From Candidatus Acidulidesulfobacter diazotrophicus (GTDB taxonomy: Bacteria; SZUA-79; Acidulodesulfobacterales; Acidulodesulfobacteraceae): 64,000 nt of DNA. The translations under genes and the position numbers were made by a program. Location: assembly GCA_004195025.1 (NCBI GenBank), contig SGBB01000007.1, forward strand, positions 1-64,000. The letters run 5' to 3'. Below, piece after piece: positions 5,575-45,594 of this stretch. How positions within the stretch are numbered: position 1 is the stretch's first letter; the number at the start of each line of letters is the position of its first letter. The notes under the pieces are model-generated. The model ran no database searches and had not been told where the DNA came from. It was given only the letters and a program-made list of their open reading frames with translations.

Positions 5575-5660
5575 CTGATGACCGCCCCGCTCTCGGCTTA
5601 TAGCATTGTGAACAGAAACGGCATGCGTCCCTATTTTCGGAACTTTCCCGCTGAAGCCGG
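5575..5660 (+). repeat. dispersed repeat, module B copy
   Basis: This stretch begins CTGATGACCGCCCCGCTCTC and runs through GAACAGAAACGGCATGCG to CGGAACTTTCCCGC. It matches module B of the family described at 34213-34446 and at 18703, 31364 and 45327. Inside are short inverted repeats such as GAAACG/CGTCC (degraded here) and GGCTTATAGC. The rest of the 345-base gap between cysS and the next gene is A+T-rich. It shows no gene, tRNA or clear terminator. Confidence 0.75.
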
Positions 5661-8147: not shown

Positions 8148-8263
8148 CTGGATTCCTGCCTGCGCAGGAATGACAACCAAAAGGTGAAATGATAAAACAC
8201 TCTCAAAGTCATTCCCGCACAGGCAGGAATCCAGAAATATAAATCTCTATCGGCAATTTTGGG
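8148..8263 (+). repeat. dispersed modular repeat, two hairpins plus right terminal repeat
   Basis: Hairpin 1 (CTGGATTCCTGCC/TGCGCAGGAATGAC) is followed by a 34-base spacer, hairpin 2 (GTCATTCCCGCACAGGCAGGAATCCAG), and the right end TCTATCGGCAATTTTGGG at 8246-8263. That right end matches the right termini at 31593, 34446 and 50891. The nested module B and the left terminal repeat are absent here. It is therefore a short derivative of the family whose full copy is at 34213-34446. Confidence 0.8.
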
Positions 8264-18702: not shown

Positions 18703-18797
18703 CCTGATTCCCACCTGCGCTGAGGAGTTCCGAAGTAGAAAAACGCACGCCGCTTCAGTTAATGAGGATATAAGCCGAGAGCGAAGCAGTCATCCTG
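18703..18797 (-). repeat. dispersed modular repeat, module B with a degraded hairpin
   Basis: It begins with a degraded hairpin arm (CCTGATTCCCACCTGCGC). Module B follows in inverse orientation, from AGTTCCGAAGTAG through ACGCACGCCG and ATAAGCCGAGAGCGAAG to TCATCCTG. It lies between the 3' ends of the convergent NYN nuclease and fliH genes and has no terminal inverted repeats. See 34213-34446 for the full family. Confidence 0.75.
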
Positions 18798-31327: not shown

Positions 31328-31363
31328 TATAATATAGTTATTGCAAAATAGCAAAGAGTTATC

Positions 31364-31593
31364 TAAAATTGCAGGTAGAGATTTATAGTTCTGGATTCCC
31401 GCTTTCGCGGGAATGACTTTGAAAAATTTTAAAAGTTCACCCGTTAGGTGTCATTCCTGCGAAAGCAGGAAAGTTCCGAAAGTAGAAACGCACGCCGTTT
31501 CTGTTCATGAGGCTATAAGCCGAGAGCGAAGCGGTTATCCTGCGTTATTAATGCATTGCAGTATATTTAACAATCTCTATCGGCAATTTTGGG
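31364..31593 (+). mobile_element. MITE-like modular repeat, full-length copy with module B on the right
   Basis: The left end AAAATTGCAGGTAGA (a decayed terminal repeat) leads through TCTGG to a hairpin (ATTCCCGC/GCGGGAATGAC). Next come a conserved spacer with TTTTAAAAGTTCACCCGT, a second hairpin (TCATTCCTGC/GCAGGA), module B in reverse orientation, and the right end ATTAATGCATTGCAG...TCTATCGGCAATTTTGGG. TATCT stands on both sides and may be a target duplication. It fills most of the 377-base gap between flgE and fliK. A 67-codon frame inside it (31413-31616) is not a gene. Confidence 0.75.
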
Positions 31594-31704
31594 ATATCTT
31601 CAACACTGTAATATAAAGATAATTATTTCTATAAGCCTAACTATCCTCCCTTTTTAAGGAAGAGAGTTAGAAATTAATATAAAAATAAAATAAGTGAAAT
31701 AAAA

Positions 31705-34161: not shown

Positions 34162-34212
34162 AATATTCATATTCTAATTATAAAAAATTTATATAGAATA
34201 ATATTATTTATC

Positions 34213-34446
34213 CTCAAAATTGCCGATAGAAAAGTTTATTCTGGATGACCGCTTCGCTCTCGTGCCTAACGACACTCGTGAACAGAAACGGCATGCGTTT
34301 CTATCTTCGGAACTTTCCCGCCTACGCGGGAATGACGTTGAGGAATTTTAAAAGTTCACCCATTGGATGTCATTCCTGCGAAAGCAGGAATCCAGCGTTA
34401 TTAATGCATTGCGGTATATTTAACAATCTCTATCGGCAATTTTGGG
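34213..34446 (+). mobile_element. MITE-like modular repeat, best full-length copy
   Basis: Terminal inverted repeats CAAAATTGCCGATAGA (34215-34230) and TCTATCGGCAATTTTG (34429-34444) bound the element. Inside, in order: TTTATTCTGG, module B in forward orientation (GACCGCTTCGCTCTCG to TCGGAACTTTCC), a hairpin (CCCGCCTACGCGGGAATGAC), the spacer TTTTAAAAGTTCACCCAT, a second hairpin (TCATTCCTGCGAAAGCAGGA) and ATTAATGCATTGCGG. TTTATC lies on both flanks and could be a 6-base target duplication. There is no transposase frame. A 74-codon frame inside (34245-34469) is not a gene. It fills most of the 370-base gap after fliJ. Confidence 0.8.
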
Positions 34447-34531
34447 TTTATCTGATGCTTTTGACTTAAATATAATTTAAATATATAATTAATATAAAAT
34501 ATTTTAACAAATAAAATTAACTATTAACTAT

Positions 34532-45326: not shown

Positions 45327-45594
45327 CTGGATTCCTGCTTTCGCAGGAATGACACAAGGAAGGTAAACCGTTAAATTTTAGCTAAGTCATTCCTGCTTTT
45401 GCATGAATGACACAAGGAAGGTAAACCGTTAAATTTTAGCTAAGTCATTCCTGCTTTTGCATGAATGACACAAGGAAGGTAAACCGTTAAATTTTAGCTA
45501 ATTCATTCCTGCGAAAGCAGGAAAGTTCCGAAGATAGAAACGCACGCCGTTTCTATTAACGAGGCTATAAGCCGAGAGCGAAGCGGTCATTCAG
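45327..45594 (+). repeat. dispersed modular repeat with 58-bp tandem units and module B
   Basis: It begins with a hairpin (CTGGATTCCTGC/GCAGGAATGAC). A 58-base unit (GAATGACACAAGGAAGGTAA to the next hairpin arm) then starts at 45347, 45405 and 45463. A last hairpin (CATTCCTGC/GCAGGA) leads into module B in reverse orientation, ending GCGGTCATTCAG. No terminal inverted repeats were found. It fills most of the 396-base gap between flhF and flhG; the last 95 bases are A+T-rich leader. Confidence 0.85.

Follow-up and report, generated by a model that had tools for sequence, protein, structure and literature searches.

Several families of small bacterial repeats share parts of the architecture described here. 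The CGTC-tagged REP sequences are arranged in inverted dimers with spacers of 20-100 bp (Di Nocera et al. 2013; PMC3733652). According to the same source, they include dRS3 of Neisseria, RPE-4 and RPE-6 of Rickettsia, and the Wolbachia repeats, have no known dedicated transposase, and form some dimers that lie inside longer palindromes. The BOX elements of streptococci are composite small repeats in which the internal module boxB is optional; in S. suis, one and the same boxB lies between different terminal modules, and the module copy number varies between strains (PMC3049150). Bacterial MITEs (Correia/NEMIS, RUP, ERIC/IRU) are non-coding, intergenic elements of 100-300 bp with TIRs, target duplications, and strong secondary structure, while Rickettsia palindromic elements (RPE) occur alone in intergenic regions and also in frame within genes (PMC2229807). 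The acquisition of internal modules by REP dimers, BOX, and MITEs has usually been inferred from static alignments.

The window examined here (64,000 nucleotides, C7:1-64000) belongs to a genome of 2.46 Mb in 47 contigs (G000). The elements at 31364 and 34213 are members of a composite MITE-like family. Read from left to right, both contain a TIR, a short flank, a REP hairpin, the directional spacer, a second REP hairpin in inverted orientation, a long flank, and a second TIR (Table 1). They occupy flagellar intergenic gaps, between flgE-like and fliK-like genes (31328-31704) and between a fliJ-like gene and the next ORF (34162-34531), respectively. As is typical of MITEs, the TIRs match each other (17 of 19 bp in the 31364 copy, 16 of 16 bp in the 34213 copy), and the 6-bp target duplication TTTATC of the 34213 copy is single at the empty site of a sister genome. 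Also, no listed ORF starts and ends inside the elements, which measure 161 bp without the nested module (B), about 230 bp with one B, and 283 bp with two. Folded as single-stranded DNA, whole elements are more stable than shuffled sequences (z -5.6 and -6.8). B folded as RNA, alone or with one arm, was not clearly above shuffle stability (z -0.4 to -1.5), and no Rfam family matched the window above the gathering score.

Table 1. Component parts of the two elements in the window.
Copy	Feature	Position	Strand	Remark
34213	Element limits	34213-34446		234 bp; flanked by TTTATC duplications
34213	Target site duplication TTTATC	34207-34212	+	Right copy 34447-34452; single at orthologous empty site G061 C191:150391-150396
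34213	Left TIR CTCAAAATTGCCGATAGA	34213-34230	+	
34213	CTGGAT, outer tail of left REP arm	34241-34246	+	
34213	Module B, subtype GTGCC-TAAC-GACAC, left arm slot	about 34247-34314	+	Boundaries from filled/empty alignment
34213	Palindrome P AAACGGCATGCGTTT inside B	34286-34300		
34213	Left REP hairpin TTCCCGCCTACGCGGGAATGAC	34315-34336	+	
34213	Directional spacer with TTTTAAAAGTTCACCC	34337-34368	+	Motif at 34346
34213	Right REP arm without B, GTCATTCCTGCGAAAGCAGGAATCCAG	34369-34395	+	REP reads GTC ATTCCTGC GAAA GCAGGAAT CCAG
34213	Long right flank CGTTATTAATGCATTGCGGTATATTTAACAATC	34396-34428	+	
34213	Right TIR TCTATCGGCAATTTTGGG	34429-34446	-	
31364	Element limits	about 31362-31593		
31364	Left TIR TCTAAAATTGCAGGTAGAGA, degenerate	31362-31381	+	
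31364	Left REP arm without B, intact, CTGGATTCCCGCTTTCGCGGGAATGAC	31391-31417	+	
31364	Spacer, orientation as in 34213 copy	31418-31449	+	TTTTAAAAGTTCACCC at 31427
31364	Right REP hairpin GTCATTCCTGCGAAAGCAGGAA	31450-31471	+	
31364	Module B, subtype GGCTTATAGCC, right arm slot	31472-31539	-	P at 31486-31500
31364	ATCCTG, outer tail of right REP arm	31537-31542	+	
31364	Long right flank	31543-31575	+	
31364	Right TIR TCTATCGGCAATTTTGGG	31576-31593	-	

The TIR was found at 144 sites of the 2.46-Mb genome with at most two mismatches, versus 6 for a reversed-pattern control, and the spacer motif at 37 sites. At least three diverged TIR types were recognized (CCCAAAATTGCCGATAGA, CCTTAATCCTGCGATAGAAA, and CCTTAAATCACCGTTAGAAA), and the TIR sequence CCCAAAATTGCCGATAG is associated with target duplications of 5-6 bp. 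Six relatives of the 34213 copy lie at other places in the genome; since five of them are 99-100% identical to it and one 94%, this copy spread recently. Profile HMMs for B and for the core were run on 1.31 Mb of the genome, made up of the greater part of contigs C1-C7 and C22 and of regions surrounding matches. They yielded 69 B matches and 135 element clusters, 67 with and 68 without a B match; as the sequence covered was roughly half of this genome and, for the sister, 0.41 Mb, in part around matches, these counts are not unbiased frequencies. The relatives, the B matches, and the TIR control place the arrangement far beyond chance.

The REP hairpins, (T/C)GTC-ATTCCCGC-4 nt-GCGGGAAT-CCAG, fit family 1 of the CGTC-tagged repeats, with the C/TGTC tag, an 8-bp stem starting with A-T, a 4-nt loop, and a CCA tail described in the corresponding part of PMC3733652. 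In contrast to the dimers presented there as predominant, which are head-to-head with the tags outside, the tags face inward across the spacer (the rare 'TT' form of that source). The dimer also differs in being enclosed in a TIR element with a target duplication, which offers a concrete route for the spread of REPs. Finally, exchangeable cassettes are located at the stem-tail junction; the passages of PMC3733652 concerned describe none, and no such description was found in the open-access literature searched. For an internal module that is optional and common to different termini, BOX elements are the closest analogue, a likeness of architecture only: boxB is arrayed in tandem between two unlike ends, whereas B fills one of two mirror-image slots, at most once per arm, and switches sides. 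Unlike the bacterial MITEs listed above, the elements contain an internal REP dimer with interchangeable arm cassettes, and no parental insertion sequence was found in 1.31 Mb.

A preceding sequence-only reading of the window had described B as interrupting the outer arm of the left hairpin in forward orientation in the 34213 copy and that of the right hairpin in reverse in the 31364 copy, with the spacer unchanged. All of this agrees with our data. The 34213 copy reads CTGGAT, then GACCGC...CGGAAC (B), then TTTCCCGC..GGGAATGAC, and the long-flank motif TTATTAATGCATTGC also has the same orientation in both copies (31545 and 34398). The two Bs belong to different subtypes, GTGCCTAACGACAC in the 34213 copy and GGCTTATAGCC in the 31364 copy. 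The opposite orientation, taken at first as a sign of movement or of arm exchange, needs no explanation: the orientation of B relative to its arm is constant, and B is 'reverse' in the right arm because the two REP arms are inverted copies of each other.

The slot of B (about 67-70 bp) is one fixed point in the outer REP arm, between the hairpin stem and the outer tail, and its boundaries are constant at CTGGA^TTCC. Filled junctions read CTGGA-TGACCGC..GGAACT-TTCC, as against CTGGA^TTCC when empty. Within one subfamily, empty copies (C3:173572, C1:295466) read TTTTCTGGA-TTCCTGC, and filled copies (C4:10950, C34:9389) CTGGA-TGACCGC...-TTCCTGC or a close variant; the latter two carry different B subtypes, the remaining sequence being closely similar to that of the empty copies. 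The TIR-3 pair C5:125353 and C1:184848 repeats this pattern, and a second cassette, K (TTTAAAGCCGCC..GGCGGCTCAT), occupies the slot of B in four TIR-3 elements. All arm states were found, namely none, left, right, and both, the last in C22:9533-9815 and C6:80585-80782 and in the core-less C4:121525 and C6:87605. In each of the three TIR types, B was found next to the short flank in some copies and next to the long flank in others. Among 86 B copies with at least 50 model positions from this genome and the sister, 60 agree with the rule that short-flank B lies on the TTTG side of the spacer and long-flank B on the GTC side; 19 are uncallable, and 7 disagree, some with lengthened flanks and three with an inverted spacer. 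Therefore, B changes side while spacer and flank stay in place, and it is an optional nested module, as first proposed, that changes arm independently of spacer and frame.

Several irregular copies were also noted. Positions 5577-5643 and 18727-18794 of the window hold decayed B-bearing elements with remnants of type-2 TIRs, while a longer array with extra REP units and a reverse B, a multi-REP version of the element, lies next to flhA-region genes (45327-45590). At C6:83815-84042 and at C29:119343-119493 of the sister, the spacer is partly duplicated with an unrelated filler of about 30 bp, which suggests template switching or slippage within the core.

The sister species is represented by the MAG SKS5.bin53 (JAJZVN01; G061, the same as G006), which is 88-97% identical to our genome in aligned stretches. 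Its counterpart of the 34213 site is cleanly empty, with one TTTATC left; what is absent is the whole B-containing element, not B alone. Orthologous empty sites exist for at least eight other B-bearing elements, and many further sites, both with and without B, are occupied in one genome and empty in the other. We saw no B-less element opposite an occupied B site in the other genome, and no gain or loss of B alone at sites common to both species. The empty-site comparisons thus reveal transposition of complete composites: an element enters its target as one unit together with its cassette and leaves a target duplication of 5-6 bp, another example of which is GTATTT (6 bp) at the sister element C195:15509. 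At the site corresponding to 31364, the sister carries a heavily reworked TIR element of about 62 bp without the core and with the long flank on the opposite side.

At two orthologous insertions, the cassette is on opposite arms or a half-element is replaced, so that the swapping of arms by recombination, one of the two explanations in the sequence-only reading, was seen directly. In the common insertion C6:85938 (sister C195:50582), flank-TIR junctions, element orientation, and spacer direction agree, with B in the left arm and K in the right of our genome, versus B in the right arm and an empty left arm in the sister. At C6:80585 (sister C195:55616), both species have the left flank, the left TIR, and the left B in common, and the sister has one B; from the spacer on, our genome continues with the right half of a different element, which brings a second, short B and a TIR of type 2, so that the TIRs of this hybrid are mismatched, and the common flank resumes after it. 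Among 61 elements with two callable TIRs, 7 combine mismatched types, versus 54 with matched ones. Side switch, half-swap, and mixed TIRs are the products expected from recombination between dispersed copies. In the window, a B-less REP-dimer element at 8148-8263 has a type 2 TIR on the left and type 1 on the right and is a recombinant.

The cassettes themselves are 99-100% identical across elements whose flanks are only 28-39% and spacers 30-50% identical. For instance, B is identical in C20:33149 and C22:33789, with flanks 39% and spacers 50% alike, and 99% alike in C20:33149 (long side) and C2:171386 (short side). In a nearest-neighbour test, which is coarse given that B is short, neighbours of B were random as to frame, shared at 0.43 (0.37 when shuffled), and as to side, shared at 0.63 (0.55 when shuffled), both with P~0.28; outer flanks track frame (0.91) and side (0.96), and spacers track side (0.85). 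These comparisons show that the sequence history of the cassette is uncoupled from TIR frame and arm side.

The survey of other genera of the family revealed parts of B on their own. Namely, REP arms and REP monomers carry the first ~36 bp (b1) with the second half missing, and the palindrome P (AAACGGCRTGCGTTT) is present in 21 of 30 family genomes, versus none for a reversed control. In these genomes P stands by itself, in some cases within ORFs or immediately in a REP arm, and its stem shows compensatory changes. B is composite, because its parts occur separately in other genera. Since comparison with the sister provides empty sites as well as one side switch and one half-swap at orthologous loci, and the sub-modules are separate in related genera, the route of assembly is directly testable. 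As an observation in its own right, the palindrome AAACGGC(A/G)TGCGTTT (L273-L301), with covarying outer stem pairs and some copies in ORFs, makes up a separate family of small palindromic repeats. One REP monomer of a related genus, with the first half of B (G012:C3:242216, L254), is apparently read in frame inside an ORF, judged by eye, as Rickettsia palindromic elements are. P and this monomer resemble RPE in their occurrence; the difference is that P in the window genome occurs only inside B. In another genus (G012, L063), a REP loop holds an unrelated insert of about 50 bp with its own palindrome (GCATGCCGTTGATGC region).

We consider it rather probable that these are composite MITE-like elements whose arm slots are filled by cassettes exchanged via recombination and which are moved as wholes. 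A TIR frame of at least three types surrounds the inverted pair of CGTC-type REP hairpins and the directional spacer, each arm slot being either empty or occupied by a hairpin cassette, usually B. Exchange would proceed by homologous recombination or gene conversion among the many dispersed copies, with homology presumably supplied by the REP hairpins and by B itself. A B-bearing arm would fit either side, since the arms are inverted copies, and would be reversed automatically on switching; a putative transposase acting in trans would then move the finished composite. In this sense, the repeats resemble a mix-and-match kit, with arm slots empty or holding a hairpin cassette of about 70 bp. Against recombination, cross-frame B pairs keep only about 5 bp of homology outside B on the side of the differing flank, little for ordinary recombination if B was not present in both partners beforehand. 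Also, only two shared loci show exchange directly, and both genomes are draft or metagenome assemblies in which a repeat-induced chimera at a single locus is possible. The changes of arm and partner nevertheless probably arise by recombination.

The other explanation in the sequence-only reading, that B moves on its own into CTGGATTCC, was not supported. All Bs checked within the 1.31 Mb searched belong to an element or to what is left of one (places initially taken as B-only turned out to be degraded elements retaining pieces of TIR or REP), and no site shared with the sister was changed by B alone. In its general form, with B and the related K and P as site-specific mobile hairpins that insert themselves at the REP stem-tail junction in one orientation, self-insertion seems unlikely. 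It would account for the exact constant boundaries, the filled and empty copies within one subfamily, the several cassettes in one slot (B long, B short, and K), and the near identity of B across unrelated frames and sides, with identity falling at its edges. P standing alone in other genera, and directly in REP arms there (L300, L301, L296, L291), points the same way. However, P is inside B in 45 of 45 cases in this genome and was not found outside B in this genome or the sister, the three listed cases being duplicate loci; B is not bordered by a duplication, and no enzyme for it is known. An identical pattern would result from gene conversion between Bs already in place, which two genomes cannot separate from true B mobility. 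A fuller scheme is just as doubtful: the stem-tail junction would serve as a duplication-free integration slot of fixed orientation for independent hairpins (B, its halves b1 and P, and K), and a transposase in trans would spread the composite, giving three nested levels of mobile hairpins.

An ancestral presence of B in both arms, with later loss from one or both in separate lineages, is improbable. Elements with two Bs exist, as it predicts, but the paired Bs differ in subtype, and no direct repeat at the edges of B would allow deletion to restore CTGGATTCC exactly. Empty copies are common (68 of 135 clusters without any B), and related genera have B-less copies of 161 bp (L062). Simple inversion of the whole element or core, with B always an integral part, has next to no probability and is refuted for the window copies by the spacer and long flank, which keep their orientation while B changes side, although core inversion occurs rarely (in 3 of 86 B-bearing elements, C5:118002 and sister C138:5366 and C66:6271, spacer and flanks point in opposite directions). 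A candidate whole inversion, C10:70857 versus sister C191:55648, is 88% alike after flipping, but each copy is 95-97% alike to copies of its own genome; two independent insertions seem more likely.

With regard to the recombination model, the enzyme that would move the composites was searched for. No autonomous element or transposase with TIR types 1-3 within 0.7-3.5 kb was detected in 1.31 of 2.46 Mb, and the candidate intervals contained housekeeping genes (Lon, HisA, and CarB-like, judged from translations) and no transposase. Y1 transposase matches are located at C36:3217 (239 aa, RAYT-like) and C21:29717. Mobilization of the REPIN type by RAYT was rejected on the basis of C36:3217: the RAYT-like gene exists, but without surrounding REP, none being present within 1.5 kb of it. 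On either side of this gene (L190) lie simple repeats that are long and AT-rich (TATTATCTA and AAATAAT arrays).
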